From IMG/VR virus record IMGVR_UViG_3300009182_005502, positions 1-54,686 of that record: a stretch of DNA of 54,686 bases; one strand, 5' to 3'. Below the pieces are notes generated by a model, which was not told where the DNA came from, did no database searches, and saw only the letters and a list, made by a program, of their open reading frames with translations. Origin of the DNA: a virus. Both the position numbers and the translations under genes were made by a program. The stretch's first letter is position 1. The number at the start of each line of letters is the position of its first letter. Shown piece by piece: positions 595 through 48,370 of the stretch.

Positions 595-1130
595 GTATTA
601 TATACTAAATGCTTTTTCAAAAAAGTAAACCATAAATCCGTAGCATCTTTATGTAATTTTTCTATAACTTCTGATTCTGTCATATCTTCTATAAGAACAG
701 TACTATACTCTTTAATTTCTCCTCCATCAAGCTCAGCTGTACAACGGTGTATTGTATTACCTGACCACTTTAAACGTTCTGCTGCAGCACGCTTCTGAGG
801 ATCTTTTCCTTTAAGGTGAGGGTGAAGAAGTAGGTTAGCAGGATGTAAATTATATATTTCGTACTTTTCACATACTTCTGCTGGTACAATTCTAAGCCAC
901 CCGTGAAGAGTTACAAAAGAATTAAACGGTATATTATGCAGATACTCTCCTAGTGTAGTTTGTTTATTTACTTCAAATATTCTTTCTCCAGCAGAACTAA
1001 GCAATAGTGGATTTACACCTTCTAACTCTTGTTTGTTCGTAACAATAAAATCAGGATACCTACCTAGTTTTTCAGATATATTATATATCTCTGTTCCTGA
1101 TTGACTAAAGAAAGCTACCCAGGGTCTCAT
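591..1130 (-). CDS. PurN-fold formyltransferase, candidate preQ1-DNA formyltransferase (DpdN-like)
   Basis: The 179-residue protein has the formyltransferase catalytic triad of PurN: Asn94 and His96 in NLHPANLL, and Asp135 in the ELDGGEI loop that follows GNTIHRCT. Family members transfer formyl from 10-formyltetrahydrofolate to an amine; in PurN the amine is GAR. I chose ATG at 1130, because the upstream TTG would extend it by only two residues and the ATG overlaps the DpdA stop (ATGA). No other purine-synthesis gene is adjacent. The partner is a DpdA-like transglycosylase, so the amine may be that of a 7-aminomethyl-7-deazaguanine base, as proposed for phage DpdN. True PurN, or a sugar N-formyltransferase serving the glycan genes, are the alternatives. 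Confidence 0.78.
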   Translation of the reverse strand: MRPWVAFFSQSGTEIYNISEKLGRYPDFIVTNKQELEGVNPLLLSSAGERIFEVNKQTTLGEYLHNIPFNSFVTLHGWLRIVPAEVCEKYEIYNLHPANLLLHPHLKGKDPQKRAAAERLKWSGNTIHRCTAELDGGEIKEYSTVLIEDMTESEVIEKLHKDATDLWFTFLKKHLVYNT

Positions 1131-1975
1131 TGGCAAAATTTCTTAAAGAGAGATGTATTATAAAAAGCTAATTCTAGCTGTTCGTAGTTAAGATTATGAT
1201 TAATAAATTCAACAAGTTTAACAGACCATTTTTCACTCAATCCATAAACAGGGTTGTATCTTTTACCGAGAATAGCACTTACAATAGGGTTTGACGTATC
1301 TATAGTACTAATAGAATTTTTAAATTGAGTATTATTATACAATTTAAATTCCCACGGAGTAGCACAACCTAGTAGATGATGTGGTTTTTTACTCATTAAA
1401 ACACCATCATTATAAAGACGGGTTAGTAAAGCTACTCTGCCCAGAGTATATCTTACCCAGTTATTAAATCCCATCCAATGTACCCATCTAGGTACAGGTT
1501 CAATTTCCTTTTCAAAAGTATCTATAGAATTCCATTCGTTAAGATAAAACGAATAATCAAATGAAATTGCTATTTTATCAACACGAGGAGCAATATAGTT
1601 ATAACAATCTACTATTTCTTCATACGTCTTGCCCTGTATAACACCTATCTTTTTTCCAGGAAGATTTGTATATTCATTTGTAAATTTTTTAAAGCTCTCA
1701 ATAGTGCCTTTAGAATCCTCTAAAACATCAGGTATAATATACTCTGTAGGACGTAGATCTTTAATCCAATGAGCGTACTCCTTTGAGTCATAAGCCTCTC
1801 CTAACTCAAAAATACTATTATCAAGAAGTACATGTCTGCCCATTTCGACAGACTCTTTATAAAAATTATAATAATCAGTATGAATTGGTAGAAGATGTAC
1901 TAAGCAATAATCGTAATCGTTATACCCTCTTGATGTAGTAAGAAGGCTAATAGGTGTTTCGTGACTAATAAGCAT
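1127..1975 (-). CDS. dpdA: tRNA-guanine-transglycosylase-like protein, probable DpdA (7-deazaguanine insertion into DNA)
   Basis: This 282-residue protein shows the landmarks of the TGT/DpdA barrel in order: LLDNSIFE (Asp52, counterpart of the DSGGFQ aspartate), IIPDVLED (80-87), GVIQG (111-115), HLLGCATPWE (200-209) and a later Asp226 in an IDTSNP context that may be the nucleophile. Family enzymes exchange guanine for a 7-deazaguanine base. DpdA does this in DNA, whereas Tgt acts on tRNA. I use ATG at 1975; an upstream frame extension has no ATG and runs through the promoter. It is the first gene of an operon with the formyltransferase and kinase. QueD and QueE elsewhere in the window supply the matching pathway. 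A tRNA substrate cannot be excluded. Confidence 0.75.
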   Translation of the reverse strand: MLISHETPISLLTTSRGYNDYDYCLVHLLPIHTDYYNFYKESVEMGRHVLLDNSIFELGEAYDSKEYAHWIKDLRPTEYIIPDVLEDSKGTIESFKKFTNEYTNLPGKKIGVIQGKTYEEIVDCYNYIAPRVDKIAISFDYSFYLNEWNSIDTFEKEIEPVPRWVHWMGFNNWVRYTLGRVALLTRLYNDGVLMSKKPHHLLGCATPWEFKLYNNTQFKNSISTIDTSNPIVSAILGKRYNPVYGLSEKWSVKLVEFINHNLNYEQLELAFYNTSLFKKFCQ

Positions 1976-1986
1976 AAATATTGAAT

Positions 1987-2015
1987 ATAATAATGTCAAA
2001 TATAAGAAATGTCAA
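1987..2015 (-). promoter_or_regulatory. sigma70-type promoter of the dpdA operon
   Basis: TTGACA (2015-2010), 17-base spacer, TATTAT (1992-1987), then 11 bases to the dpdA ATG. The -35 hexamer is a perfect consensus. The predicted start of transcription leaves a leader of only a few bases. Confidence 0.6.
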
Positions 2016-2226
2016 GTATATTGTATATAAAAAAAGAATATACGTAGTAAAAGTAGGACCTGTTTATATCTGGAGTACAGCTGCTGCTATAAAAGAAAAC
2101 TGTGTTCACAAAGCTATTGAACATTTTAAAGTAAAATCTGAAAATTATTTAAAATATAAAGGCGCTGAAATTATAAGCTTATACGTTAAAGAAATAAAAA
2201 TTCAGGACAATTCAGGAAATACATAG
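1993..2226 (+). CDS. small protein of unknown function (doubtful)
   Basis: A 77-residue frame on the plus strand, flanked on both sides by minus-strand genes. The translation is basic and protein-like, rich in Lys, Tyr and Val (YKKRIYVVKVGPVYIW), with no repeats or low-complexity runs. It overlaps the end of the bilin reductase gene tail-to-tail by 25 bases. A CATAAATA element 12 bases before the ATG could be a late promoter. Against it, the dpdA promoter lies inside its first codons. I recognise no family. Confidence 0.4.
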   Translation: MSNIRNVKYIVYKKRIYVVKVGPVYIWSTAAAIKENCVHKAIEHFKVKSENYLKYKGAEIISLYVKEIKIQDNSGNT

Positions 2227-2852
2227 TTGTTTAAAAAATGCTTAGCATTTTCTTCTCCAACATCTACCGCTAAAGCTTTAAACGTTTTGTCGTTTTTCTT
2301 CTGACCTATACAATAACTATTCTGTTTTTCTATATTTGTTTTGTATCTTTCTTTAAAAGATTCTGAATATTTTAAAAACTCTTTTGTTATTGCTCTAGAA
2401 TTACACTGTAAAAAATCTATTTCTTCTTCTTGTGGAGATACACAAATAAAGTTTTCTCCAAAGAAATTTGCCCATTCAGGAAGTTTCCTTTCTGGGGACT
2501 TTATAGTATTTTTTAACTGAAGTAAGTTCTTTTGAAGAATCTGATTAGCATTAATAGGTGTAAGATCAAAAAAGAAACCTGTAATTTTATTACCGATTTC
2601 AATAAAGTCTAAACCTAATATAGGTATATCAATAGTAGCATTAGGAAAAATATTAGCGTGTACTACCCCTATTCTTTTAGTTTTATAATATTCTAAATGT
2701 ACATGTCTAAAAATAGGACTTGTATAGATATTATTTTGCCAAATTATATCAGTATTATACTGACCCTCGTAAAGAGTAGGACGATCTGGATATCCAAAAG
2801 CGTCTGTAAAATCTTGTGTTAAAAGATCAAAAAATTCTCTTAGCTTGTCCAT
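2202..2852 (-). CDS. pcyX: ferredoxin-dependent bilin reductase, phage PcyX-like
   Basis: Members of this family reduce biliverdin IXalpha with electrons from ferredoxin to phycobilins. This 216-residue protein carries the core signature: HLE (52-54), VVH-x-NIFP, PILGLDFIEIG and FFFDLTP. His65 and Asp82 sit 17 residues apart, like the catalytic His88/Asp105 pair of PcyA. PebS-type enzymes have Asn in place of that His. The protein is a little shorter than cyanobacterial PcyA. It overlaps the heme oxygenase gene by 13 bases and follows it in the same transcript, so heme to biliverdin to reduced bilin would be one cassette. The His/Asp pair plus non-cyanobacterial context fits the PcyX group known from ocean phages. 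The exact bilin product cannot be read from sequence. Confidence 0.82.
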   Translation of the reverse strand: MDKLREFFDLLTQDFTDAFGYPDRPTLYEGQYNTDIIWQNNIYTSPIFRHVHLEYYKTKRIGVVHANIFPNATIDIPILGLDFIEIGNKITGFFFDLTPINANQILQKNLLQLKNTIKSPERKLPEWANFFGENFICVSPQEEEIDFLQCNSRAITKEFLKYSESFKERYKTNIEKQNSYCIGQKKNDKTFKALAVDVGEENAKHFLNNYVFPELS

Positions 2853-3406
2853 ATCTCTTCAAACAAATCTATATGAAACTGAAAGAAAGCTTTTGTTTCA
2901 AAAACAATGTTATCATTTAAAGAATCGGGTGTATCTTTATCAAGAAGATATCTAACAGTAGTAATAACAGCCATAGGGTCCTTAGATTGATAAGTTTCAT
3001 TATAAGGGGCTTGAGACTTAGCGAGAATTCTACCTCCGTAGAAATCAGCTAACCACCTAAGATAAAAATCCGCCTTAAGAAGCTCTTCACTCTTTGTCCA
3101 AGAATTTGCAAGCCAGGCACGAGTTACCGTCTTAATCGTGCTCTTTGTATAGTTAGTATCAGCAATAAGCTTGTCAATATCTTTCTGTATAAAAGTACTT
3201 CTCTTTAAATCGTTATTTTCTAAAATTTCTTTTTGAAGAAGTCGTTGTTCAACTACCTGATAGACTGGTAGAAGATTAACAAGCAATTCTAGTAAATGTT
3301 CCTTCTTAAAGGAACCATCTACAAAGGATTGCATTAACGGATGTTGCTCAGAAGCTCTATGAAGTTCTGCCGTTTCTTCTTTTAAACGTGTCTGTAAATT
3401 ACTCAT
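2840..3406 (-). CDS. ho1: heme oxygenase
   Basis: This soluble helical protein of 188 residues opens like bacterial heme oxygenases, with LKEETAELHRASEQHPLMQSF. His16 is the expected proximal heme ligand. The distal-helix region is WLADFYGGRILAK (118-130), with the glycine pair that lets the helix kink over the heme. The enzyme would cleave heme to biliverdin, CO and iron using reduced ferredoxin. It is first in a two-gene operon with the bilin reductase, whose start lies inside its 3' end. Its own promoter stands directly in front (TTGATT-16-CATAAT). In phages such enzymes divert host heme; in a non-phototrophic host the use of the bilin is unknown. Confidence 0.88.
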   Translation of the reverse strand: MSNLQTRLKEETAELHRASEQHPLMQSFVDGSFKKEHLLELLVNLLPVYQVVEQRLLQKEILENNDLKRSTFIQKDIDKLIADTNYTKSTIKTVTRAWLANSWTKSEELLKADFYLRWLADFYGGRILAKSQAPYNETYQSKDPMAVITTVRYLLDKDTPDSLNDNIVFETKAFFQFHIDLFEEIWTS

Positions 3407-3415
3407 ATGTTTTAT

Positions 3416-3443
3416 ATTATGGTATCTTCTTTAAAGAAATCAA
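3416..3443 (-). promoter_or_regulatory. sigma70-type promoter of the heme oxygenase/bilin reductase operon
   Basis: TTGATT (3443-3438), 16-base spacer, CATAAT (3421-3416), then 9 bases to the ATG. It overlaps the last codons of the DNA polymerase gene. No Shine-Dalgarno sequence fits between promoter and start. Confidence 0.55.
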
Positions 3444-5983
3444 GAAAATAAATCAAATAAATCAGTTTGTACTTCTTTACCAATGATAGGTAGATGCCAA
3501 CCGATAGCATCATAAACAGCTTCAATAGGTGGAGCTACAATCTTACCGAACATCTTATCGTAATCAATTTTTATATTACCAAATTCTTTTGGATAATCTC
3601 CACTAAAAGCAATAGCATCTAAACTATACGGATTTTTTGATGCGTAAAAGAACTTTACCTTCTGTCCTGATTTGATTGATTCGTATTTCTTTGTAAGATT
3701 GAGTTTTTCTAAAAGAAAATTATACGCGAGGGCTGCTTTTACGTGACAGGGTGTTCCTTTATTAAATTTGTTTAAAGACGCACCGGCTGTATACTTGTCA
3801 GGTTCCTTAACAGCCTTTCTAAACGAAGCTTCTGATATACTAAGATTCTTAAAAAGATCATATGCTTCTCTAAATACTTCGTTTGTCTTTTTAACGTCTT
3901 TAGTGAGGAAGGCAGTCTCAATAGTTTTTTGTATAATTGCTTTTACAGGTTTCGGTGTTGTTGATCTAGCAAGCTCTACCCCGACGTACTTAAACTTCTT
4001 CATCGGTACACCTTCTTCATCTAGAATACGAAGAATATAACGCTTTTTCATTAAGAAGGAACCTACATCAGCAATAGCTTCACGCTTAAACACAAATCGA
4101 GGGTCAGCAGAGTTTAAGTCTTCTCGAGCCCAATCTAGAATCTTTTCTCCTAAATGTTTATCAATAGCATCTACAATAGTATGAACTTTAGGATTAATAA
4201 TACAATCTTCAGCAAGTTTAACTCCTAGCTTATCTAAAATAGGCTGTATAGTAATATAAAGGGAATCAGTATCACCGCTTAGAATCAATGACTCATTTAC
4301 TTTAAACGTATCTTTAGCAAATTGATTAATAATATTACCGCCGGCCTTAGCAACAGCTTGACCTGTTAAGGTAATAGAAGAGGCATTATCGATATCCATA
4401 AAGGCAGAATGCTTATTAGCAAACGTACCGTAGATAGAGTTCAAAAGAATCTTCAGCGTATATTGAAGGGTATCAAAGTATTGAATTGAGTCAGTTGTTT
4501 CTTTATCTTCTTTCTTAGTCTTTTTAAGCTCGATCATCTTTTTACGCGCATAGACACGCTCATCGTAAATACTATTAATCAAGTTAGGACAAACCCCTTT
4601 AAATTTTTGTGAGTATAGTACACCTGCTTTAGATAAAGATACATTTTCGTCTTTAAGAAACTTTTTCAGTTTATCGACGGTAAGTGTAAACGATCCACCA
4701 TTAACAAGCTTAATACCAATCTCTTTATCAGTTTCAATATCACCTGTTACAATCTTACCTAGCTTTGTTTCCGGTGAAATATTCAGCGTTATAATTGTAT
4801 TAGGGTATAGAGAGTTAACGTCAAAGCTTACTATAGCTTCTTTGAGTCCACGTTCAGGCTCTCGCACGTAGCCTCCCTCAAGCGCTTCTCTTATTGTTTC
4901 GTTTTTAAACGTAGGAATAACAAAGCCTTGTTTACGAGCTTGCAGAGACATTGCACCTGTAACAATAGATACCTTACCTAAAGCTCTTTCAAAATTAGTA
5001 CATCCTTTATAAGCAAGGAGACGAATAATTTTAAGGTAGTTAAGCTTATCTTCAAGCTTACGAAGCAGATCTACATCCTGAATGTTATAATCAACAAAGT
5101 TTTCCCAGTCTGTATCAGCTAGAGTGGAAAGGTTAGTAGCGTTAATAGCAAGTTTACCTTCATTAAGTTCATACTCAGCAATATAGTTAAGGGAAAACGA
5201 CTCTCTGTCTCCCTTAGAGTATGTTTTATAAATCTCCATGTAGTCCAAGCAACTAATACCTGAGATATACCAACGACCTACGTCTTTACCAAACTTAGAA
5301 AAGTTTTCTCGATAGTTAATTTCTCTTACCGGGGAAAGTTGTTTAATAAACTCATCTCCTAATAAATTTTTAGCACGATTAATAATGTAAGGAATATCGA
5401 ACATCTCTGTATTCCATCCTGTTAAAATATCTGGAGGGTCTTTTTTCCAGAAATTTACAAATTTCTCAAAGAGATCTTCTTCGCAATCACATTTGTAATA
5501 TGTTACGTTAGGTAGTTTCGGTTTATAATCGTTTTTTAAACCCCAGGTATGAATCTTACCGCTAATAGTATCAAGAATTGTAATAAGAGTTACAGGATCT
5601 TTAGCTTTAGCAGGAATAGGAAACTCATTTGGTGAGTAAGTTTCAATATCAATAAAATAAACCTTTAACGGAAACTTACTAAACTCTTCTTTATGCACAT
5701 CCTCCTTGAATGTTTCGATAAGGAATTGCTGATCGACCGGTAAATTACCAAAAAGACGTGTATTCTTTGTTTCGTTTACGAACTTATTGCGTTCAAAAGA
5801 GTTTCTAAAATAATGCTTTTTAAGAGATGTCTTAAAAATTGAAGTTCCATCTCCTGCTTTATCATTTTCTGTATAAAGAAAAGGTGTAAACGGTACTTCA
5901 GTATCTATACGGTCTCCGTCTTCTGTCCAAGTACGAAGATATACAATTCCTTCTTTAGGGTTATAGGTAGCGTTTCTATACAC
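3440..5983 (-). CDS. 43: family-B replicative DNA polymerase (T4 gp43-like)
   Basis: This 847-residue protein is the replicative polymerase. The 3'-5' exonuclease begins at FIDIETY (Asp112, Glu114). Polymerase motifs follow in order: DVNSLYP (388-394), the KILLNSIYG helix (511-519) and SGDTDSLY with the catalytic DTD (571-573). T4 gp43 is 898 residues, so the length is normal. The start is GTG, fixed by the N-terminal MYRNATYNPKEG and by a promoter ending six bases upstream. Downstream lies the heme oxygenase operon. Upstream are a glycosyltransferase and gp46, which keeps the loose clustering of T4 replication genes. I see no intein or intron interrupting the motifs. Confidence 0.97.
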   Translation of the reverse strand: MYRNATYNPKEGIVYLRTWTEDGDRIDTEVPFTPFLYTENDKAGDGTSIFKTSLKKHYFRNSFERNKFVNETKNTRLFGNLPVDQQFLIETFKEDVHKEEFSKFPLKVYFIDIETYSPNEFPIPAKAKDPVTLITILDTISGKIHTWGLKNDYKPKLPNVTYYKCDCEEDLFEKFVNFWKKDPPDILTGWNTEMFDIPYIINRAKNLLGDEFIKQLSPVREINYRENFSKFGKDVGRWYISGISCLDYMEIYKTYSKGDRESFSLNYIAEYELNEGKLAINATNLSTLADTDWENFVDYNIQDVDLLRKLEDKLNYLKIIRLLAYKGCTNFERALGKVSIVTGAMSLQARKQGFVIPTFKNETIREALEGGYVREPERGLKEAIVSFDVNSLYPNTIITLNISPETKLGKIVTGDIETDKEIGIKLVNGGSFTLTVDKLKKFLKDENVSLSKAGVLYSQKFKGVCPNLINSIYDERVYARKKMIELKKTKKEDKETTDSIQYFDTLQYTLKILLNSIYGTFANKHSAFMDIDNASSITLTGQAVAKAGGNIINQFAKDTFKVNESLILSGDTDSLYITIQPILDKLGVKLAEDCIINPKVHTIVDAIDKHLGEKILDWAREDLNSADPRFVFKREAIADVGSFLMKKRYILRILDEEGVPMKKFKYVGVELARSTTPKPVKAIIQKTIETAFLTKDVKKTNEVFREAYDLFKNLSISEASFRKAVKEPDKYTAGASLNKFNKGTPCHVKAALAYNFLLEKLNLTKKYESIKSGQKVKFFYASKNPYSLDAIAFSGDYPKEFGNIKIDYDKMFGKIVAPPIEAVYDAIGWHLPIIGKEVQTDLFDLFS

Positions 5984-9089: not shown

Positions 9090-9950
9090 CTACCAATAGC
9101 AACCACCTTCAATATTTTTATATTTTTGTGGTGTTTCCTCAATAGAGGGACTAATCCAATGTTCATTATAAAAATGTTTACCTATATTTCCTTCACTCCA
9201 TCTTCCTCCTTTAACACCAAATAGAAGTTGTAGAGGTCCTCCAACGTGTATAGCTTTTTTACCGTTTTTTCTAGCATGGGCAACCAACGGTAAGGACGAG
9301 GCACCAGAACCAACAAGCATTATATCGTAGTCAATAGTATCCATCAACGATTTATAATGTCTAACCATATCTAACCAACTATTAAATTCGCTAGGTTTAT
9401 CGATACCTGGAGAATGAGGATGCTTAAGAGTATAGAGATTAAATGTTGGTAAAATTCTAGGATCTTTCCAAATAAGATGTCTTTTATCGTACTGTTTCTT
9501 TATTGATTCTGTAAACGGTGAAATAACTAAAACGTTTTTACCTTCAAGATATTCAGACCAAGGGGATCCTGAATAAAAGGGTTCAATACTTTGAAGATCA
9601 ATTAACTCACAATTTGGTGAATAACTTTTTATATAAGATGCTTCAAAAGACATATTAAACATAGACCACCAAGCAAGAGAGTCTATATGTTTAATACTAT
9701 CTGTAACTTCCTTAATAAAATCAATACGAGCTTGCTCTGTCTGGGGAAATACACCAGCGTTGTTATATATTTCATCAACAACATTAGGCATCCATTGAAC
9801 TGATTGATTATTTTGCTTATACATATAGTAATTGTATATACACATTAATTCGCAATTGCCTATTTTACCGCAACCAAAAGGTTCCTCTTTCTTAAATTTA
9901 TTATAAAGATAAAAAGAACTATCAACAAACTCTTTTTTTAAAAATTGCAT
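9090..9950 (-). CDS. putative GT-D-fold glycosyltransferase
   Basis: This 286-residue protein resembles the GT-D (DUF1792-like) transferases. An N-terminal GKIGNCEL sits where the family has RxGDGE. The C-terminal half has the glycine-rich strand MLVGSGASSLP followed by KKAIHVGGPLQLLFG, typical of the family's nucleotide-sugar fold. The DGE acid is replaced by NCE here, so activity is uncertain. It is the last gene of the large glycan block before gp46, one base downstream of a GT4 gene. I infer a role in surface or virion glycan assembly from the context only. Confidence 0.6.
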   Translation of the reverse strand: MQFLKKEFVDSSFYLYNKFKKEEPFGCGKIGNCELMCIYNYYMYKQNNQSVQWMPNVVDEIYNNAGVFPQTEQARIDFIKEVTDSIKHIDSLAWWSMFNMSFEASYIKSYSPNCELIDLQSIEPFYSGSPWSEYLEGKNVLVISPFTESIKKQYDKRHLIWKDPRILPTFNLYTLKHPHSPGIDKPSEFNSWLDMVRHYKSLMDTIDYDIMLVGSGASSLPLVAHARKNGKKAIHVGGPLQLLFGVKGGRWSEGNIGKHFYNEHWISPSIEETPQKYKNIEGGCYW

Positions 9951-9951
9951 T

Positions 9952-11037
9952 TTATAATTGAGAGAAAAGATTTAAAATATCCGACTTTACTTTTTCGTAA
10001 CTATAAAAATTATTATATTTCCAATTAGCTTTAGCTACATATTCTTTATAAAGATTTTTATCTGTTTCAAGTTGTTTCATCCTATTAGCGTAATCATTAA
10101 CATTATTTTCTACAAATCCACATCCTTCAACTTGTTCAACTTGTCCCATATTGCCTGCCTCATGCGTAATAACAGGTAAGTCATTCGATAGTGCTTCAAT
10201 AATAGCTAACGAACAAATCTCTCCATCACTTCTGGCGTGTGTATAGACATTTAAACTACTTAAAAAGTTATGTATATTTTCAGAGTTTGAATCATGCTCA
10301 ATAAATTTAATATTTTTTATATTAAGATGTCTTGCGTATTCTCTATGTTTTAAAGACCCTCCAAGCAATAAAAAGTAATTATTTTCGTTTTCAATTTGCT
10401 TATACGCCTCAAGCGATAAAGGTGAAAAAATACTTTCACTATTTCTTTGATGAAACCCGTATACAAATGTATCTTCAGATATACCAAGTTTTTTGCGAAC
10501 TGTAGAAGGTTTTTTAGGTGGTACTTCAACTACTACAGGTATAACAAGAAGTTTACTTGAATCACCTCCATTATTTACCCAAATATTAGCCTGCCAGCGA
10601 CTTATTAAGGCTTGTTTAAAAAAATTAGGTTGATCGAATGTATAAATACCGTTTTGTATATTAATTACTCTTGTCTTTTTAATAACATTAAACGGGTACT
10701 CTTCAACCCCTCTATTACCTATAACAATAGCATCATATTTACTTTCGTCAAATTTATCCCAAAGATCTGTATCTATCCAGGGTTGTTCATCTCTGCCCCC
10801 GATACGTCCTCCTACTTTAACTTCAATTGTATTAATACCGGCTTCTTGACAAATTTTAAGCATTAAAGGATCATTTTCGGCATGTCTATGACCGTCTGTA
10901 AAAGGGCAGTTGGTTGTGTAGTAATAATCAACATCGTACGAATTATTAACAAGAATTTTAGCTATGGACTGTAAATGTTTTTCAGTACCACCTGCTGCCA
11001 TACCACAAAATTTAATAAACGCAATTTTTTTCGACAT
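9952..11037 (-). CDS. GT4-family glycosyltransferase
   Basis: A 361-residue GT-B transferase. The N-terminal GGTEKHLQSIAKIL is the usual acceptor-domain opening of GT4. The C-terminal domain has the TFVYGFHQR strand, a KFIEHDSNS turn and the donor-binding EICSLAIIEALSNDLPVITH, with the paired acids E-x7-E expected for sugar-nucleotide contact. It lies one base after the FkbM methyltransferase gene and one base before the GT-D gene, so the three form one transcript from the promoter at 11.7 kb. Donor and acceptor are unknown. Confidence 0.85.
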   Translation of the reverse strand: MSKKIAFIKFCGMAAGGTEKHLQSIAKILVNNSYDVDYYYTTNCPFTDGHRHAENDPLMLKICQEAGINTIEVKVGGRIGGRDEQPWIDTDLWDKFDESKYDAIVIGNRGVEEYPFNVIKKTRVINIQNGIYTFDQPNFFKQALISRWQANIWVNNGGDSSKLLVIPVVVEVPPKKPSTVRKKLGISEDTFVYGFHQRNSESIFSPLSLEAYKQIENENNYFLLLGGSLKHREYARHLNIKNIKFIEHDSNSENIHNFLSSLNVYTHARSDGEICSLAIIEALSNDLPVITHEAGNMGQVEQVEGCGFVENNVNDYANRMKQLETDKNLYKEYVAKANWKYNNFYSYEKVKSDILNLFSQL

Positions 11038-11038
11038 A

Positions 11039-11674
11039 CTATAACGATATTAGCGCAGGTGAATAAAATGTTTTATGCGCAAATATTTGATATCTATTTG
11101 GTTCGTGCTCTGTTATTATATTTTTACATTGCTTATAACCGTGATCGTTAAGATAACTAAAGTCGTCTGTTTTAATAAGTGTGCTTTCATCATACGGATG
11201 TATTTCAAGTAATATAAGATTGAATTTTGTGTAATTAAAATCAATACCTAATAATACATGATGTTCGTATCCTTCTGTATCAAGTGTCAGGAAATCAACA
11301 TGTGTTAAATTATGCTTTCTTAAGAGTGTATCTAAAGGACAGCATGGTACCTGATAACTTCTATATTGTCTTAAATGTAGAGCTGTTACGCCTGACTCTA
11401 GTCCTGAATTAGCGTGACCAAAATCAATAGTGTTATGCGGATAAGTTTTTTCTACTAAGGCATAATTTTCAAGTATACTCTTAGGTCTAGTTGTTTTATA
11501 TATTTCGTTATAATCTGTTATAGGTTCAACTAATAGACCTGACCATCCACAGTTTTCTAAAAAAGAAGTATTATTTTGATCATAAGGGTTGCTTGCTCCT
11601 GCTTCTACAAAAATTCCATCATTTTTTTGATTAAAAATATTATAAACAATACGATCTATTCCATGCTGTGACAT
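11039..11674 (-). CDS. FkbM-family SAM-dependent methyltransferase
   Basis: This 211-residue protein has the class I methyltransferase pattern of the FkbM family: GIFVEAGASNPYDQNN for motif I, GLLVEPITDYN for the ribose-binding acid, and VDFLTLDTEGYEHHVLLGID, the family's diagnostic block. FkbM enzymes O-methylate sugars and other hydroxyls. The promoter immediately upstream makes it first in a three-gene unit with two glycosyltransferases. O-methylation of a glycan residue is the natural inference. Confidence 0.85.
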   Translation of the reverse strand: MSQHGIDRIVYNIFNQKNDGIFVEAGASNPYDQNNTSFLENCGWSGLLVEPITDYNEIYKTTRPKSILENYALVEKTYPHNTIDFGHANSGLESGVTALHLRQYRSYQVPCCPLDTLLRKHNLTHVDFLTLDTEGYEHHVLLGIDFNYTKFNLILLEIHPYDESTLIKTDDFSYLNDHGYKQCKNIITEHEPNRYQIFAHKTFYSPALISL

Positions 11675-11681
11675 AACGATA

Positions 11682-11709
11682 ATTATACTATGTATATGTA
11701 ATTGTGCAA
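11682..11709 (-). promoter_or_regulatory. sigma70-type promoter inside the glycan block
   Basis: TTGCAC (11709-11704), 16-base spacer, consensus TATAAT (11687-11682), then 7 bases to the ATG at 11674. It divides the 9-22 kb block into at least two transcription units and predicts a leaderless message. Confidence 0.6.
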
Positions 11710-11720
11710 TAAATTACATT

Positions 11721-12488
11721 TTAACCATAAGCTTCGCTAAATATTTCAACATTGTTTATAAGTGTATCTAATGTTTCATTGTTTAGCAAATTACATTCTA
11801 ATGTAACGTATTTATTATAGTTATATTTTTTAATTACAGAAGATATTTCTTTATTTTTTAATATATCTATACTCTTTAAGTACGGTGAACTAATATGTAT
11901 ATGTTCTATTAAACTTGCTCCGTTTTCAAAAATATGTTCCAAGCTCTCACTATTAAATATAGTCGTACTAATATCTAAAACTAATTTTAGATTTTCATGC
12001 TTAACATTATTAATAAAATTAATTGCTTCTGTTGTATTGGTAATAAAATTACAACCGTATTCTTTTGCATTAGCTTCTAAACAAACTATACAATCAAATG
12101 TTTTAGCCATATCTCCTATTTCTTTAAAAATTTCTATAGCTTTTTCAATTTTAAAATTATTAAAATCTTTAATAAATCTATTTTTTGGTGAACCGAAAAC
12201 TAAAGGTTTAATTTTTAATTTATTTGCTAATTTAAAAACTTCTTTAAGATGATTTAAGATTATTTGTTTTTCTATTTCTCCATCAAACAAAGAAACAGGC
12301 GGGCATGTATATAATAGAGATTGCATACCTACCATTTTTATATCAGCTTTATTATAATCGTTTTCTATCTCGTCGTTTATAAGAGACGGGGAAACATCAA
12401 CATTAGATATTTGATAACTTTTTAAGATATCGATAGCTTTTTTATTTTCAGATTGATTCCACCCTATATTAGATACGCTTAGATTCAT
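11721..12488 (-). CDS. TIM-barrel sugar isomerase/epimerase-like protein (xylose-isomerase/AP-endonuclease-2 fold)
   Basis: The 255-residue protein has the metal-ligand ladder of this superfamily: CLEANAKEYG (Glu), LKLVLDIST (Asp), IEHIHISSPYL (His) and a terminal YVTLEC (Glu). The family isomerises or epimerises sugars and polyols. It starts inside the 3' end of the reductase/epimerase gene, overlapping by 20 bases. Together with the following FAD enzyme the three form a tight cassette. The gene is even richer in A/T and in Asn, Lys and Ile codons than its neighbours, suggesting separate origin. The substrate is unknown; a nucleotide sugar or a free sugar precursor is inferred from context. 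Confidence 0.75.
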   Translation of the reverse strand: MNLSVSNIGWNQSENKKAIDILKSYQISNVDVSPSLINDEIENDYNKADIKMVGMQSLLYTCPPVSLFDGEIEKQIILNHLKEVFKLANKLKIKPLVFGSPKNRFIKDFNNFKIEKAIEIFKEIGDMAKTFDCIVCLEANAKEYGCNFITNTTEAINFINNVKHENLKLVLDISTTIFNSESLEHIFENGASLIEHIHISSPYLKSIDILKNKEISSVIKKYNYNKYVTLECNLLNNETLDTLINNVEIFSEAYG

Positions 12489-13230
12489 ATTCTTTTTTAA
12501 AATTTTTTAAATCCTCAATAATTTGTTTTTTATTATAAAAATATTTTTGTTTATTAGGGGCGTACTTAGAATGAAAATCGTTTTTAAAAAACGTATTATT
12601 GGGATCTAAATTAATATTAAAAACATCTTTATAAAAATCTCTAATTAGTAACGGTTCAGTAGCTAAGTTAACTAACTTATATTCTTTATCTATAAAGTTT
12701 AATAAATCAGCTCCTAAATTTTTTACATTGTAAATTTGTACAATAGCATTTCCATTTACTTTATGTACTTCATTATTATTCAATGCATCGAATATTATAT
12801 TCTTTTTAAGATCGTGACCGTACATAATAGGTAATCTTACTATTAAACAGGAAGGAAAAATATTTCTTATAGCTTTTTCTAAAAAAAATCTATTTTGACC
12901 ATAATGATTATTATTAATATCCTCTACAAATGTATCCTCATCTACGTCATACGGTTTTTGATAAACATCAATTGTTGAAAGTAATATAAACTTTTTTGCT
13001 TTAATTGTTTTTATATTTTCGATAAAAGATAGTATATTATTAAAATCCTCCTCGGGGTTTTTATTAACTAGCCATCTTGTTGATGAGTTACCCGCTGATA
13101 CAACTAAATCAAATTCTTTATTTTTTATTTCTAATATATTTTTAGAATTATAAAGAAAATTAAAATTAATCTGTTTTATAAGGTTTTGACCTATAAAACC
13201 GGTATAACCTATTAAAGCATTATTACTCAT
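12469..13230 (-). CDS. NAD(P)-dependent sugar epimerase/reductase (extended SDR)
   Basis: The 253-residue Rossmann protein has GYTGFIG (8-14) for the dinucleotide, FILLSTIDVYQ (80-90) with the catalytic Ser/Thr, and Tyr109 in HYGQNR. The usual YxxxK is YxxxR here (Arg113), an odd replacement that may alter or weaken catalysis. An RLPIMYG segment follows, as in dTDP-sugar reductases. It overlaps its upstream FAD gene by eight bases and its downstream isomerase gene by 20. It probably modifies the sugar made by the cassette, but the product cannot be named. Confidence 0.75.
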   Translation of the reverse strand: MSNNALIGYTGFIGQNLIKQINFNFLYNSKNILEIKNKEFDLVVSAGNSSTRWLVNKNPEEDFNNILSFIENIKTIKAKKFILLSTIDVYQKPYDVDEDTFVEDINNNHYGQNRFFLEKAIRNIFPSCLIVRLPIMYGHDLKKNIIFDALNNNEVHKVNGNAIVQIYNVKNLGADLLNFIDKEYKLVNLATEPLLIRDFYKDVFNINLDPNNTFFKNDFHSKYAPNKQKYFYNKKQIIEDLKNFKKEYESKRI

Positions 13231-14299
13231 CTTGTATTATTTTAGCAAACTCAGAGGCCATGAGTGGAGCTGATATTAATTTACCTTCTTTTATAGAATA
13301 AAAATCTATTTCGTAATCATGTTTTACAATTTTTGTTACTCTAGAATCTCCTTTTGCACTTAGGGGTATTGGTCTATTACCGTATAAAGAATATTTGTAT
13401 TTTAATTTGCTAAAGAAAGGATAATACTTTAAACCGTGTTTTAATATTTTTTTCCAATTACTTTTTAAAGCTGTACTCTGTCTATATAGTATACCTGTTT
13501 TTTTCTTAATAACAGAATTAACAACATCGTAAATAAGATAAAGATTTTTGTATCCGGAGTATGGTAATATACTAATAAACGGTCCATCCATTACTGTTAG
13601 TGCAGGTATTTTTGTAGTTGATTCAACAACTGCTATTTCTGTTTCTTCAAAATAATATCTTGTATATCCATCTTTAATACCAAACAGTTTAAGTACATTA
13701 TTACTATTAGTATATGTACAATTTATTATTAAATCTGTGTTTATTGTTATATCTTTGTCAAATGATTTTAAAATAATATTTTTATTAATTTTCTTAACTT
13801 TTTTAATTTTGAAATTTAAAACTATTTTTACTTTTAAATCTTTTAATTCTTTTTTAATTTTTTTTCTAAACTTAGGAACATTAATACAAGCCTCATTAAC
13901 TTTAAAAGAATCTTCTATATCAATTCTATTTAAAAAGTTTTGATCAGGCCAAGAGGTATTGCAACTAAGACCCTCTTTTAGCATTACTTTTTTAAATAAT
14001 TTAGAGTCTATTTTAGATTTTTTTTCTATTACATAATAAAAATCAGGAAATATAAGACAATCTTTATATTTTTTTATAAAAAAATCGTAACCGCTTTTAC
14101 ATTCATGAATTGTTTCTACCGATCTAGGGTAATGATAACCTAAATGTATTCTATTATGCGTGCAATTTGAAGTACCTAATAAAATATCTTTGTTTGTATC
14201 AACTATTACAACATTATTATTTTTCGCTAATTCTAATGCTAAAGTAACTCCGTGAATTCCTGCTCCAATAATTAAAATATTTTTTCTACTATAATTCAT
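13223..14299 (-). CDS. FAD-dependent oxidoreductase (D-amino-acid-oxidase superfamily)
   Basis: The 358-residue protein begins with a classical FAD-binding IIGAGIHG (10-17; GxGxxG at 12-17) and a VVIVDTN strand that ends in the ribose-binding acid. A second FAD segment is near 190 (DLIINCTYTNS). The C-terminal half is a basic substrate domain. Such enzymes oxidise amines, hydroxy acids or amino sugars. It is the first gene of the three-gene cassette and its ATG overlaps the TGA of the GT10-like gene. Lys-, Ile- and Asn-rich composition matches the two following genes. The substrate is unknown. Confidence 0.75.
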   Translation of the reverse strand: MNYSRKNILIIGAGIHGVTLALELAKNNNVVIVDTNKDILLGTSNCTHNRIHLGYHYPRSVETIHECKSGYDFFIKKYKDCLIFPDFYYVIEKKSKIDSKLFKKVMLKEGLSCNTSWPDQNFLNRIDIEDSFKVNEACINVPKFRKKIKKELKDLKVKIVLNFKIKKVKKINKNIILKSFDKDITINTDLIINCTYTNSNNVLKLFGIKDGYTRYYFEETEIAVVESTTKIPALTVMDGPFISILPYSGYKNLYLIYDVVNSVIKKKTGILYRQSTALKSNWKKILKHGLKYYPFFSKLKYKYSLYGNRPIPLSAKGDSRVTKIVKHDYEIDFYSIKEGKLISAPLMASEFAKIIQDE

Positions 14300-15147
14300 A
14301 GTATATTCTTAACCATAAATTCAATTAAGGGAGCTATAGTAGGTTCATTACCTTCAAACAAATAACTGGATGTTATAGATTTATATGCAACATCATCATT
14401 ATCCAATTCAATTATCCTCTCAACAAACTTGTCTACGCTTTTAAAGTTATAAAGATTTAAAAACGCATTCTTGTTGTAATCCTTTTCGCAATTATTATCA
14501 GCCCAGTAGAGAGGTAAACATCCGGCAGCTTTAGCATGAGGCATTCGATCTGTATAATAACCAGGAGCAATAGTGTTTTCAAAGCAAATATTAAATTTGT
14601 AATTTGATATTAAGTTTATTTTAACATCTTCACCATAAAACCAATTATTAAATGGCTTACCAAAGCAGTGTACTTGTTTATATTTACCTAATTTTGCAAC
14701 AATTTCATACCTGTGAGGAGAATCAGTATTAAAAACAATAGCACAAAATTCGTTTTTCGGTTTGTGCATTAAAGGGTTATCTTTTATATCTTGAAAAGGT
14801 ATAACATATTGCGGATTTCCGTAATTTACCTTATTAAACCAATCTATTTGTAACATCCAAAGAGGTAGGCGAAAATTCTTACCGTTGTAATCTTCAAAAT
14901 CAAACGTGAGAGAGTAATCACATTCGTTAAAATTTGGTCTATGATTTTCACCTGTATAAAATACTTTTTTTGTTTTAGTGCGATTTGCACGATGATGATC
15001 ATGACCAAAACATGAATATATTAATAAATCTGTCTCATCGTTAAGAGGTGTTATTTCAACATCAGGTCTAATAGATTTAATTAAATCCCTAAAAAAATTA
15101 TTTTCGTGTTGAAACCCTCCCCAAAAATCACAAAATGACAGTTTCAT
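14296..15147 (-). CDS. GT10-like (fucosyltransferase-type) glycosyltransferase
   Basis: The 283-residue protein carries the GT10 hallmark near 183-215: YKFNICFENTIAPGYYTDRM followed by AAGCLPLYW. An earlier VFYTGEN segment matches the family's acceptor side. GT10 enzymes transfer fucose, or a related 6-deoxy sugar, from the GDP-sugar. I start at ATG 15147, five bases after the methyltransferase stop, rather than at the upstream extension inside that gene. A second GT10-like gene lies at 44710-45642; they share the ENT...P-IY core but are otherwise divergent. Confidence 0.82.
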   Translation of the reverse strand: MKLSFCDFWGGFQHENNFFRDLIKSIRPDVEITPLNDETDLLIYSCFGHDHHRANRTKTKKVFYTGENHRPNFNECDYSLTFDFEDYNGKNFRLPLWMLQIDWFNKVNYGNPQYVIPFQDIKDNPLMHKPKNEFCAIVFNTDSPHRYEIVAKLGKYKQVHCFGKPFNNWFYGEDVKINLISNYKFNICFENTIAPGYYTDRMPHAKAAGCLPLYWADNNCEKDYNKNAFLNLYNFKSVDKFVERIIELDNDDVAYKSITSSYLFEGNEPTIAPLIEFMVKNIL

Positions 15148-15151
15148 AAAT

Positions 15152-15763
15152 TTATTTCTTACAAGCAGCGATATAAGTACCGCACCACCACTCATTCCTA
15201 TTACCTGCACTTGTTAAATATTCAGAATACTCAATTTTTATTTTCTTATCACTTAAGGCCATTTGTGTAGCACTCTGTATTTTTTTCTCATCGTAATCAT
15301 CAACAACTAATATAAATTCATCTGCTAGAGATTCATAAAAGTAAATTATAGAATCGTAGTGTTGTTCCCAGAGATGACCTCCGTCATACAAGTATAAATT
15401 AATATCAGTGATATTATTAGCTTTTAAATCTATAGTAAAAGAGTCTTGATTAATAAAATTAGGTTCTTCTTTTATAATATTTCTAAAATTATTATAAAAT
15501 TCAGTTGTACAATTACCATGACAGCTCCAATCGTCTACTGTAACATAAAATTCAGGTTTATTACCGTAAATAGCCGAAATAACCGTTGAACCTTTCCATG
15601 TACCTATATCTAAATAACGTGTTTTACTATCTACTAAATTATTTAGTAAATGTCTAAATTTTGTTGATGACATACCTTCAACACTTAGTATTTCCGGAGG
15701 TAATTTTGATTTGTGTTGTTTAGCTAAATCAATAGCATTTATTATTTTTGTAATGTTATTCAT
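15152..15763 (-). CDS. class I SAM-dependent methyltransferase
   Basis: The 203-residue protein has motif I as RYLDIGTWKGSTVISA, a later LYLYDGGHLWEQHYDSI block and a VVDDYD strand, as in Methyltransf_24-type enzymes acting on sugars and small molecules. It sits between GT25 and GT10-like genes in the same direction with gaps of five bases, so it is part of the glycan operon. The acceptor is unknown. Confidence 0.75.
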   Translation of the reverse strand: MNNITKIINAIDLAKQHKSKLPPEILSVEGMSSTKFRHLLNNLVDSKTRYLDIGTWKGSTVISAIYGNKPEFYVTVDDWSCHGNCTTEFYNNFRNIIKEEPNFINQDSFTIDLKANNITDINLYLYDGGHLWEQHYDSIIYFYESLADEFILVVDDYDEKKIQSATQMALSDKKIKIEYSEYLTSAGNRNEWWCGTYIAACKK

Positions 15764-15768
15764 AATTT

Positions 15769-16389
15769 TTATCTTATACTTGTTGGAAATTTAAAATAAG
15801 GTGTTTCACCGATAGATCCTTGATGCAAACCAGGCTCTAACCAACATGTCTTAAGGTTATGCTCTGTAATAATATCATTAAGTTTGTGATCGTAACCCCT
15901 ATAAGGTCCTTTATGTAAACTATCTAAAACAATATTAATACTTTTTGCTGTATACATTATAGCGTGTGCACATCGTGTTCTAAACCTTGGTTCATAATAA
16001 ACGTTTGAACCGTTTAATACGGTAGGTCGTTCGTTAAACGCTGTACCTATCATTAATAAATCTCCATTAAGATTTTTAAATTGTGAAAAAAATGTATTAA
16101 AATATTCTTTAAAAGAATTGCAAAGGATTATATCATCTTCAAAAATAATACAATATTCACTATTAGTAGATTGTGCTCTTTTAAGTGCTTGTTCAAATTT
16201 TAAGCAAAGAGAGTACTCTCTTACTGTAATTGTATCACTATCAGGTTTTTGAATTTCTTCAGGAGGAAAGTCTTCCACAAATTCATAATATAAATCTTGT
16301 TTTTTAAATTGTTCTTCTAAAAAAATCTTACGATCAACATTTGGTTTATGATGAACAATATAAATAGGTATTTTATTTTGTATTAACAT
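15769..16389 (-). CDS. GT25-family glycosyltransferase
   Basis: This 206-residue protein matches the LPS GT25 family: an opening IPIYIVHHKPNVDRK, the EYSLCLKFEQAL helix, the metal-binding IIFEDDI (EDD at 84-86), and the C-terminal GYDHKLNDI and EPGLHQGS. These enzymes add galactose or similar sugars to lipooligosaccharide or protein. It overlaps the preceding gene by 17 bases. The acceptor is unknown; a virion protein or host glycan are both possible. Confidence 0.85.
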   Translation of the reverse strand: MLIQNKIPIYIVHHKPNVDRKIFLEEQFKKQDLYYEFVEDFPPEEIQKPDSDTITVREYSLCLKFEQALKRAQSTNSEYCIIFEDDIILCNSFKEYFNTFFSQFKNLNGDLLMIGTAFNERPTVLNGSNVYYEPRFRTRCAHAIMYTAKSINIVLDSLHKGPYRGYDHKLNDIITEHNLKTCWLEPGLHQGSIGETPYFKFPTSIR

Positions 16390-17194
16390 AATCCAGCCAT
16401 TCTTTAAAGCGCCAGCCTGTACCCTTAGAGGTATCTCCTCCTACAAAGTGTCTTGCTATAACTTTATCTTTTGTCGTTCTAATAATATCGTACGTATCGG
16501 GTACTCCGTTGTTACCTGTTTCTTCAACAAGATGAGTTACATTCCATTCAACTGGTAATATTTCGGTATTATCCATAATTTCGTCTAACTCAAAGATAGT
16601 ATTTTCCTTTCTTGTATGGAACCCGTAATTTGGTAAATCAAAATATGGGACCCAGCTATGAGCGGGTAAACCTACACAATGATAATAGGCATCCTGATCG
16701 TGATCATAAAGAGGGTGATACCCGTTAAAGTTTTCTTTCCAAACAGGGAAGCTTCTAAGTTTCTCATATCTTTCCTTTGAAAGAATTGCGTTAATTAGCT
16801 TCTTTGTATAATCGTTAATCTTTAACGAAAATAAACCTGTATTGTGAGAATTGCCTGAATCAATTGCGTAGGTAAAACTCTTATTTGTAATAAGAGGTTG
16901 ATCTAGCTTAGCAATAAAAACGTCGCAATCAGTATACGTAACTATATCCCCGTCTTTAAGTTTACCTGCCTTAATACCTTCATTAATAAGCCACCAACGG
17001 GAGAACCTCTTATCGTTACTAAGATCGTGCGGTATAACAATAGGTTGAGGAACTGAAGAGGTCTTAGGTGTTACTTCGATAAATTTAAAATCGTGAAGCT
17101 TACAATATTCTCGAATTCTGGGTGCATTATATGTTTCATAGAGATACTGTCTGTTATCAGGGTACTCTGCTAGTGTAATAAAATATTTGTTCAT
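16373..17194 (-). CDS. GT-A-type glycosyltransferase (GT34-like)
   Basis: The 273-residue protein has VTYTDCDVFI, a DxD-type metal site, then HNTGLFSLKI and DHDQDAYYH, the order seen in galactosyl/mannosyl transferases of the GT34 type. N-terminal and C-terminal regions carry no signal peptide or membrane helix, so it should act in the host cytoplasm. The ATG overlaps the end of the exostosin-like gene by four bases. Confidence 0.7.
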   Translation of the reverse strand: MNKYFITLAEYPDNRQYLYETYNAPRIREYCKLHDFKFIEVTPKTSSVPQPIVIPHDLSNDKRFSRWWLINEGIKAGKLKDGDIVTYTDCDVFIAKLDQPLITNKSFTYAIDSGNSHNTGLFSLKINDYTKKLINAILSKERYEKLRSFPVWKENFNGYHPLYDHDQDAYYHCVGLPAHSWVPYFDLPNYGFHTRKENTIFELDEIMDNTEILPVEWNVTHLVEETGNNGVPDTYDIIRTTKDKVIARHFVGGDTSKGTGWRFKEWLDYVNTK

Positions 17195-17979
17195 AATGTT
17201 TGTTTAATAAGATCTCTATAAAAGCCAAATTCTGATTTAGATTTGTTTTTTTGCTGAAGATCACTATATTTACTCAACATATCAATATTATACAAGTCTT
17301 CCCATTTATCAATAAACAAAATTGGACAATCTTTAAAAAAAATCATCGGTACACTTTTTAAAACAATAGGTACTGTACCCACGTAAATTGATTCCCATAT
17401 TCGATGACAATCTATACTATTACCGGGCGGGGAAACAACAAAATTAAATGTTGCTAATGTTTCAAGATAATTTCGATAATTCTTCTTATCTTTTTCAACA
17501 TAGAGACCTTTAACATCCTTTAAGATATTATTAACACCTTGTCTTTGATTGAGATTTGTTCCTTGATCGAAATTAGAATATATTAGCCCTGTTTTTTTAT
17601 TTTCATTATTAGCTATATCAAGTACAGCTTGCTTATTACCGTGAGGCCAGCATTCATTAGCAATACCAATTGGTATTGTTTGTAGCTTGTCATGTATAAT
17701 GTGACAATTCATTCCAAACCAGCGTTTTAGAAAACGATTATTTAATATCGGTGTACATGATTCATTAATAGGTGCATCAGCATCATGTGTTATTAACACA
17801 AAATCGTAATTTATATGTGGTAAATAACGGTGTTGAAATTCTTGTATATAATCTGTCTTAACAAAAAATATATTTTTTTCAGGAGTAATTTGAATACCGG
17901 AATTACGTCTTTCACTCATACAATTATGAGCTAAGGATATAAATTTGTCTGGAGTAATAATATCGTCAACAATTAACAT
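17191..17979 (-). CDS. exostosin-like glycosyltransferase
   Basis: The 262-residue protein has the exostosin-type C-terminal block: FNFVVSPPGNSIDCHRIWES followed by GTVPIVLKSVPMIFFKDCPILFI. The first part binds the nucleotide sugar. A paralogous but divergent protein is at 47503-48369. No membrane segment is visible, unlike eukaryotic exostosins. It overlaps both neighbours by a few bases within the glycan operon. Confidence 0.75.
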   Translation of the reverse strand: MLIVDDIITPDKFISLAHNCMSERRNSGIQITPEKNIFFVKTDYIQEFQHRYLPHINYDFVLITHDADAPINESCTPILNNRFLKRWFGMNCHIIHDKLQTIPIGIANECWPHGNKQAVLDIANNENKKTGLIYSNFDQGTNLNQRQGVNNILKDVKGLYVEKDKKNYRNYLETLATFNFVVSPPGNSIDCHRIWESIYVGTVPIVLKSVPMIFFKDCPILFIDKWEDLYNIDMLSKYSDLQQKNKSKSEFGFYRDLIKQTL

Positions 17980-18886
17980 TATCTAAGAAAGGTATGATAG
18001 CTTTTTTGTTATGCATATGCAAATTAAAGATGGGTATTTGAGTGTTAGTTGCATTAACAATAACATACGGTTTTTTATTTACAAGAGTAGGAGTAATTTG
18101 TTTATTAATAATTTGCTCTCCTACAAAATGTCTCTGCTCAAAGTAACCTGCAGGATGACCTTGATTGGTACCAAAAAAATACATACCGTAAGGATTAGGA
18201 TCTATAACTGTCTGTAACTTATCAAAATTTTCTGAATACGTACCACTAGGTACGCACGGTAGCATTTTAAAATTTTTCTTATTACGGTAAATAATATCTA
18301 AGAAAGCCATATCTGTTATCCAGTTTGCAAAATGACCTGTATACGAGCGAAGTTCAGCTTCTCCTTTTAAAAAAAGTTTTTTATGTAAATTAAAAAGTGT
18401 TAAAGCTGCTTGTTTGTCTTTTATAAACATAAAGCAAGGAGCACAAGCATTTGGAGCTTCATTACTATACCCAAACTCTACATCATTAAATATAGAATCT
18501 AATTTTGAGACTGGTTCAAATAAAATATTATCAGCTTCGACATGTAACACATTTTTTAAATCATTTTTAATAACACAAATTAATAATAAAATAACTCTTA
18601 TTGTTGTATTAAACCAGAACGGGTCGTTCATATAACGGCTCCATTTTTTATTTAAAATATCAATAATTTCTTTATACTCTTCAGTATCTTTAATTGTATC
18701 TACATTAATACAGGTATCATCAAAACAGTATTTACTTTGAGTAATAAAAAAAGAATTATCTGTTAATTTTTTATTATGCTTATATGTAGCTACGTAGTAA
18801 TCCGGTAAATTAGTATACGTATAAGGATTAACAGCTGCTTCCCTATAAAAATTATTATCTAAAAAAACGTATAAAAGATTATTCAT
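17966..18886 (-). CDS. putative GT-A glycosyltransferase
   Basis: The 306-residue protein has NVLHVEADNILF, a metal-site-like ExD at the end of a hydrophobic strand, then ACAPCFMFIK and ITDMAFLDIIY, typical of GT-A transferases without a close named family. It overlaps the next gene by 14 bases and the previous one by 8. Its context in the cluster is the main support. Substrate unknown. Confidence 0.6.
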   Translation of the reverse strand: MNNLLYVFLDNNFYREAAVNPYTYTNLPDYYVATYKHNKKLTDNSFFITQSKYCFDDTCINVDTIKDTEEYKEIIDILNKKWSRYMNDPFWFNTTIRVILLLICVIKNDLKNVLHVEADNILFEPVSKLDSIFNDVEFGYSNEAPNACAPCFMFIKDKQAALTLFNLHKKLFLKGEAELRSYTGHFANWITDMAFLDIIYRNKKNFKMLPCVPSGTYSENFDKLQTVIDPNPYGMYFFGTNQGHPAGYFEQRHFVGEQIINKQITPTLVNKKPYVIVNATNTQIPIFNLHMHNKKAIIPFLDNVNC

Positions 18887-30997: not shown

Positions 30998-31465
30998 ATG
31001 AACATTAAACAACCTACCTGGCAGAGTACAAAAATTATAACACTCGGTTCATGTGCATTTCGTCAATGGGGTGCTAATCACTCTCATTGTCAGTACCTTC
31101 ATGGCTACCAGCTTAAGGCTAAGTTTTGGTTCAGCGGTAAGGAATTGGATAATAAAAACTGGATGGTTGATTTTGGAGGTTTAAAACCTCTTAAGAAGAT
31201 ATTAGAAGATCAATTTGATCATACCCTTTGTATTGCTGCTAACGATCCATGTCTAGAGCAGTTTAAAGAGCTTGAAAAGCTCGGTGCTTGTGTTCTTCGT
31301 ATTATGCCAGACGGTGTAGGTATAGAAAGAACAGCCGAATGGGTATATAAAACTGCTAATGATTTTATTAATATAGAAACTAACGGTCGTTGCTGGGTAG
31401 ATAAGGTCGAGGTTTTTGAGCACGAAGATAATTCAGCAATTTATTCAGAATGGAAAACAAACTAG
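30998..31465 (+). CDS. queD: 6-carboxytetrahydropterin synthase QueD-like
   Basis: The 155-residue protein matches QueD/PTPS. It has NHSHCQYLHGY with His28, His30, catalytic Cys31 and His35, then NWMVDFGGLK (54-63) and DHTL (Asp74-His75). QueD makes 6-carboxy-5,6,7,8-tetrahydropterin from 7,8-dihydroneopterin triphosphate, the second step to preQ0. The HGH zinc pair of most members is HGY here (Tyr37), an unusual change that some phage versions share. GTP cyclohydrolase and QueC are not in the window. It overlaps the next gene by 16 bases. Confidence 0.88.
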   Translation: MNIKQPTWQSTKIITLGSCAFRQWGANHSHCQYLHGYQLKAKFWFSGKELDNKNWMVDFGGLKPLKKILEDQFDHTLCIAANDPCLEQFKELEKLGACVLRIMPDGVGIERTAEWVYKTANDFINIETNGRCWVDKVEVFEHEDNSAIYSEWKTN

Positions 31466-45642: not shown

Positions 45643-45644
45643 AA

Positions 45645-48369: not shown

Positions 48370-48370
48370 G

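Follow-up and report, generated by a model that had tools for sequence, protein, structure and literature searches.

Genes that convert heme to bilins occur in phages whose hosts are apparently not cyanobacteria, and the reason is an open question in the literature (PMC11480375). A functional phage pair of HemO and PcyA has already been published: in the CB_2 phage (Wegner et al. 2024), HemO makes biliverdin, and a reductase without Asp55 makes phycocyanobilin (PCB) (PMC11480375). Asp55 is cited as the PcyX-specific residue (PMC11480375), and Glu76 is specific to PcyA, needed for reduction of the 18-vinyl group and missing in PcyX (PMC10151467). In PcyA, Tyr238 bonds Glu76 (PMC9800206), and the structure of the Synechocystis PcyA E76Q mutant with biliverdin is available as PDB 3i95.

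Here we describe a heme oxygenase (HO) gene and a ferredoxin-dependent bilin reductase (FDBR) gene in a viral record of 54,686 bases with a G+C content of 31%. The whole of this stretch is referred to below as the window.

Results

The gene pair

An earlier note on this DNA had read the locus as an overlapping heme oxygenase and bilin reductase. Both genes were confirmed by Pfam matches above the curated cut-offs (48.1 bits against 23 for the heme oxygenase, 77.9 bits against 31 for the reductase; Table 1), and the identical overlap of 13 nt is found in four relatives (L002, L003, L004 and L018). dN/dS lies between 0.05 and 0.22 wherever dS is measurable; both genes are under purifying selection and are thus real genes.

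Table 1. Positions of the features of the window referred to in the text.
Feature	Position	Strand	Match or remark
Downstream neighbour of the cassette, conserved, function unassigned	1127..1999	-	phrog_19058, 2e-51
Small ORF overlapping the reductase 3' end on the opposite strand	1981..2226	+	about 81-84 aa with its counterparts
Promoter-like TTGACA-17-TATTAT, immediately ahead of the downstream neighbour	1987..2015	-	strong (11/12)
Ferredoxin-dependent bilin reductase (FDBR), 216 aa	2202..2852	-	Pfam PF05996 Fe_bilin_red, E 1.2e-21
Overlap of the heme oxygenase and reductase frames, 13 nt	2840..2852	-	
Heme oxygenase (HemO-type), 188 aa	2840..3406	-	Pfam PF01126 Heme_oxygenase, E 1.6e-12
Promoter-like TTGATT-16-CATAAT, candidate	3416..3443	-	first hexamer contains the DNA polymerase stop codon
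DNA polymerase B (gp43-like), directly upstream of the cassette	3440..5983	-	Pfam DNA_pol_B, 4.3e-29
Long stretch rich in glycosyltransferase, methyltransferase and sugar-related genes	9090..22054	-	
QueD-like (PTPS) gene	30998..31465	+	
4Fe-4S single-cluster gene, perhaps QueE-like	31649..32407	+	
IMP dehydrogenase / GMP reductase family gene	39369..40310	-	E 5.8e-60
Second long stretch rich in the same gene types	41437..49627	-	

In the heme oxygenase, His16 aligns with the proximal heme ligand His, Asp121 is the equivalent of HO-1 Asp140, and the GG motif is present. The proximal His and the distal Asp are kept in the heme oxygenase of every relative in the window clade, as defined below. 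Matches to HO sequences in the PDB have E values of 1.8e-5 and weaker; a search among isolated phages gave no match at E 1e-5, the HO of phage Mosig being a remote homologue.

The gene downstream of the cassette is 72% identical to the L018 gene at the equivalent place, and the promoter-like sequence just before it suggests a separate transcription unit. The small ORF on the opposite strand has counterparts in L018 (6617-6871, minus strand) and L008 (6614-6868, minus strand), and its sequence is clearly conserved among the three. A family search with it was without match; it is likely to be a real small gene.

Phylogenetic placement of the reductase

In a 47-row reductase tree with PebS as the outgroup, the window falls in a clade of nine rows (support 97/97), which is joined to a group termed cl2 (L021, L023, L024 and L119) with support of 97/95. 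The window clade and cl2 lie beside PcyX and a group termed cl3, and a split with support of 100/99 sets all of these off from the PcyA of cyanobacteria and cyanophages; PcyX is monophyletic without the window (100/98). When 42 reductases were added (89-row tree), the window clade and cl2 stayed together (SH-aLRT 97) and PcyX stayed separate; the relation of the two groups to PcyX and to cyanobacterial PcyA is not settled by the topology of this larger tree, and an AU test did not reject joining the clade to cyanobacterial PcyA (p-AU 0.185). The bacterial AX PcyA branch is absent from the trees. The trees argue for a separate phage clade that lies outside marine PcyX and, in the 47-row tree, also outside cyanobacterial and cyanophage PcyA.

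The HO tree has the same deep split, with the window clade and cl2 on one side and PcyX and cl3 on the other (99/95). Given that the HO and reductase trees split alike at depth, the pair appears to have an old shared history. The cl3 group (L026, L027 and L028) is a divergent HO-reductase pair with Ser at the Glu76/Asp55 site of the reductase and Met in place of the distal Asp of the heme oxygenase, and its chemistry is possibly altered.

By the patterns used, no reductase of the window clade was found in GTDB genomes. In two genome contig scans for alphaproteobacterial PcyA, all matches came from cyanobacteria and none belonged to the window clade; a plasmid scan for the same returned none. 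No report of the clade was found in the open-access literature.

An AlphaFold2 model of the reductase built from 25 sequences reached a pLDDT of 90.5 (81.5 for a model from seven sequences). The model is best matched by FDBR-type folds: residues 1-170 superpose on PcyA and other FDBRs with Z of about 15 and rmsd of about 3, and the match to PcyX has Z 12.6 over 129 residues. In both models residue 142 is followed by a long, straight helix for which PcyA offers no superposable counterpart.

The probable product-deciding residue of the reductase

Glu54, His65 and Asp82 of the reductase correspond to Glu76, His88 and Asp105 of PcyA, which amounts to the full PcyA triad. Against PDB sequences, the reductase matches PcyA at E 2.9e-18 and PcyX at E 1e-12, and its identity to any characterised FDBR is at most about 30%. 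A conserved His two positions before Glu76 fixes the alignment of this column. At this position PcyX (PDB 5owg) has Asp55, and Asp is found there in 14/14 marine PcyX rows, 5owg included.

The earlier note had named His16 of the heme oxygenase and the His65/Asp82 pair of the reductase, and the alignments show these positions to be correct and conserved. Since the His/Asp pair is common to PcyA and PcyX, it does not discriminate between them, and the label "PcyX-like" that the note had attached to the reductase had to be given up: membership in PcyX was rejected on the residue (Glu54, not Asp55) and on the position of the window clade outside the PcyX clade.

It is quite unlikely that the reductase is nevertheless PcyX in function, making phycoerythrobilin via a 15,16-reduced intermediate despite Glu54. 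Such an activity would fit the placement of the window clade next to PcyX in the 47-row tree (100/99 against cyanobacterial PcyA), the Phe found at the Tyr238 position in 13/13 clade rows and also in most PcyX, and the overlapping HO-reductase pair, which is the PcyX arrangement. However, Asp55 is replaced by Glu or Gln throughout the clade, the Lys221 position is Lys as in PcyA and not His as in PcyX, and the AU test leaves a grouping with cyanobacterial PcyA unrejected (p 0.185). CB_2, which is also without Asp55, makes PCB (PMC11480375).

At Asp220, too, the residue is that of PcyA. The PcyA Val225 position is Ala or Ser in the window clade and cl2 only, and Ala in the window. Because of the changes Tyr238 to Phe and Val225 to Ala, a product call from a single residue could be wrong.

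At residue 54, the 13 rows of the window clade and cl2 carry eight Glu, five Gln and no Asp, with at least four changes between Glu and Gln on the tree; the codons are GAA for Glu and CAA or CAG for Gln. The natural Gln54 reductases are those of L002, L004, L008, L018 and L119, and the Gln of L004 was found again in L005, and that of L018 in L019, in records from other samples. The E76Q protein studied by Hagiwara et al. in 2010 is reportedly unable to reduce the exo-vinyl group, with A-ring reduction retained. With 18-vinyl reduction lost in this laboratory mutant, close relatives with Glu54 and Gln54 may make different bilins.

Within the PcyX branch of the 89-row tree, the site is fixed as Asp or Glu within subclades. 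One subclade has Glu at the Asp55 site (L144, L147, L155, L161, L167, L168, L170, L186, L199, L201, L203 and L205); its members are predicted to be PCB makers, and it may include CB_2-like enzymes.

Gene content and host

The earlier description of a T4-like phage lacking photosynthesis genes was upheld. Homologues of gp43, gp46/47 (SbcC/SbcD-like), gp55 (sigma factor-like), UvsW and UvsY are present, and none of the window ORFs compared with Pfam or PHROGs proved to be a photosynthesis gene. Judged by the polymerase, the nearest isolates are Kyanoviridae and other cyanophages, with identities of only 31-35%; the top match is phage C48C1, for which no host is given.

Searches of the window and of 18-19 related records, ones of 177 and 226 kb among them, gave no member of the psbA, 2Fe-2S ferredoxin, 5-ALA synthase, phytochrome PHY, phycobiliprotein or ferrochelatase families; records may be fragments, and these absences hold for the sequence at hand. 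For 5-ALA synthase (TIGR01821), the search covered 19 records, those of 177 and 226 kb among them, and found none. A three-gene hemO-pcyA/X-valaS cassette was ruled out for the sequence at hand, no valaS having been found. A search for pmoC as a clue to a methanotroph host gave no signal in the control sequences.

Cyanophage PebS/PcyA have been proposed to support light harvesting in cyanobacterial hosts; for this pair, such a role is very improbable. The best polymerase and UvsW matches do include many Synechococcus T4-like phages, but these are only about 30-35% identical, and no host is given for C48C1, the top polymerase match. Furthermore, psbA was found in none of the records, which may be fragments, and in the best tree the reductase lies outside the cyanophage and cyanobacterial PcyA clade; on these two grounds a cyanophage or photosynthesis setting was rejected. 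The earlier note would have been contradicted by a reductase grouping with cyanophage PebS/PcyA in a genome with photosynthesis genes; the best tree has no such grouping, and the ORFs scanned include no such genes. The data are consistent with a non-cyanobacterial host.

Elsewhere in the window, the QueD-like and perhaps QueE-like genes suggest 7-deazaguanine synthesis. Two long stretches rich in glycosyltransferase, methyltransferase and sugar-related genes, and a gene of the IMP dehydrogenase / GMP reductase family, are listed in Table 1.

Promoter-like sites

The earlier note had also placed both genes under one promoter. The letters TTGATT-16-CATAAT are indeed present, but as a promoter the site is no better than shuffled sequence: the region holds 19 promoter-like sites versus 15.4 ± 3.8 in shuffles, and for this site by itself the shuffle test gives P 0.25. 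A single promoter for the pair is thus unsupported in the window. At the equivalent place, L018 has TTGATT-16-GATAAT. Directly before the HO start stand TTGACA-16-TACAAT in L003 (11/12, P 0.003) and TTGACA-16-TATAAT in L004 (12/12, P <0.0005), records in which an unrelated gene of about 1,500 codons lies divergent to the cassette. Given these near-perfect sites, some relatives probably transcribe the cassette from a sigma-70-type promoter of its own; that of the window may equally be expressed by read-through from gp43.

The 1,500-aa protein divergent from the cassette, encoded at 632-5227 in L002 and 753-5237 in L003 (both minus strand), had no PHROG match. A stretch of it resembles a von Willebrand A MIDAS motif.

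Relatives and exchange of the cassette

Besides the window, about ten contigs in IMG/VR belong to the window clade; in these and in cl2, HO stands immediately before the reductase; the two genes are adjacent in 9/9 window-clade tree members. More than 500 relatives were found in an HO profile scan of IMG/VR. Among 79 fetched HO loci, a reductase adjoins HO in 62 and is not beside it in at least 10 with sufficient flank. Marine PcyX is far commoner, with at least 588 IMG/VR contigs.

The cassette follows gp43 in the window, L008, L018 and L019; it lies beside the 1,500-aa gene in L002, L003 and L004/L005, after recombination and queuosine genes in L006, L007 and L020, and against the local strand in cl2. 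In L007, a QueC-like gene stands just upstream of it. Between L008 and L019, the polymerases are 96.8% identical, the reductases 63.5% and the HOs 78.2%. Between L008 and the 177-kb record G004, in which the cassette lies elsewhere, the reductases are 85.9% and the polymerases 52.5% identical. Given this mismatch of identities, phages exchange alleles of the cassette, and HO and reductase can be exchanged independently of each other.

The polymerase frame of L018 (2874-5201) ends early by a frameshift near the C-terminus, and that of L019 is intact; the early end is either an assembly error or a truncation.

Discussion

The sequences show the identities of the two genes, their key residues and adjacency, the purifying selection on them and the exchange of the cassette; enzyme activity, product and physiological use are inferred. 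It is probable that the pair is an auxiliary metabolic cassette of a T4-like phage, in which the heme oxygenase makes biliverdin and the reductase converts it to phycocyanobilin as the product of the window. Judging by its family and conserved His and Asp, the heme oxygenase would open host heme to give biliverdin IX-alpha, Fe2+ and CO. The reductase would then reduce biliverdin in proton-coupled steps via Asp82, His65 and Glu54, with host ferredoxin as the presumed donor because none was found in the record. Since the PcyA triad including Glu54 is present, the product would most likely be phycocyanobilin and not the phycoerythrobilin of PcyX; the Gln54 sister phages would carry out A-ring reduction only, yielding a phytochromobilin-like bilin.

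As to the use of the pathway, the residue that determines the product varies, and we therefore tentatively favour mobilisation of heme or iron, in which the reductase would serve to drain off biliverdin. The main rival, which we judge somewhat unlikely, is that a phytochrome or bilin-binding globin of the host receives its chromophore, PCB or phytochromobilin, from the pair, whereby host light sensing would be manipulated. Phage PcyA PCB does assemble with Cph1 (PMC11480375), and the reductase is kept with the oxygenase under purifying selection; a reductase would be superfluous if only iron or CO were to be set free, so that its retention argues that such release is not enough. However, the window and 19 related records of up to 226 kb gave no match to a PHY or phycobiliprotein domain, and the residue that fixes the bilin flips between close relatives, an instability that argues against a strict chromophore requirement. 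Heme or iron mobilisation is hence the use that we prefer.

We further propose, as a speculative possibility, that the reductase has naturally and repeatedly switched between a four-electron enzyme (phycocyanobilin, Glu54) and a two-electron one (phytochromobilin-type, Gln54) by one codon change together with allele exchange between phages. In non-cyanobacterial hosts, the phages would then either adjust which pigment is made or have no stake in the choice. Natural enzymes that are about 87% identical, such as the reductases of the window and of L002, differ at the residue deciding the fate of the D-ring vinyl, so that the product, and whether the product matters, could be read directly. The diversity of phage cassettes exceeds that of marine PcyX, and their alleles pass from one phage lineage to another.

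Comparison with known systems

Likened by description, the hemO and pcyA of CB_2 and the pair of the window both consist of a phage HemO and a reductase lacking the Asp55 of PcyX. For CB_2, a non-cyanobacterial host has been proposed and both enzymes have been shown to be active (PMC11480375). CB_2 also carries valaS and pmoC (PMC11480375), while neither the window nor its relatives yielded a 5-ALA synthase.

The PcyX and HemO of marine pelagiphages (Mosig EXVC030M, 5owg) are likewise encoded by overlapping hemO and reductase genes in a T4-like phage (Kyanoviridae). Marine PcyX shares with the window reductase the His/Asp pair and Phe at Tyr238; it differs in having Asp55 and making PEB, whereas the window has Glu54, with about 25% identity between the two and separate, well-supported clades.

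Cyanobacterial and cyanophage PcyA share the Glu76/His88/Asp105 triad and Lys221 with the window at about 20-30% identity. In contrast to the window pair, hemO stands beside pcyA in 0/9 of the loci examined, and some of these loci adjoin photosynthesis genes; these enzymes form a separate clade in the best tree and keep Tyr238, where the window has Phe. Cyanophage PebS is also a phage-borne FDBR, but with Asn at His88 and a very long branch. Finally, PcyA E76Q (3i95) carries the very substitution that is natural in the Gln54 relatives; 3i95 is an engineered laboratory mutant of the Synechocystis enzyme, whereas in these phages the change is natural and repeated.
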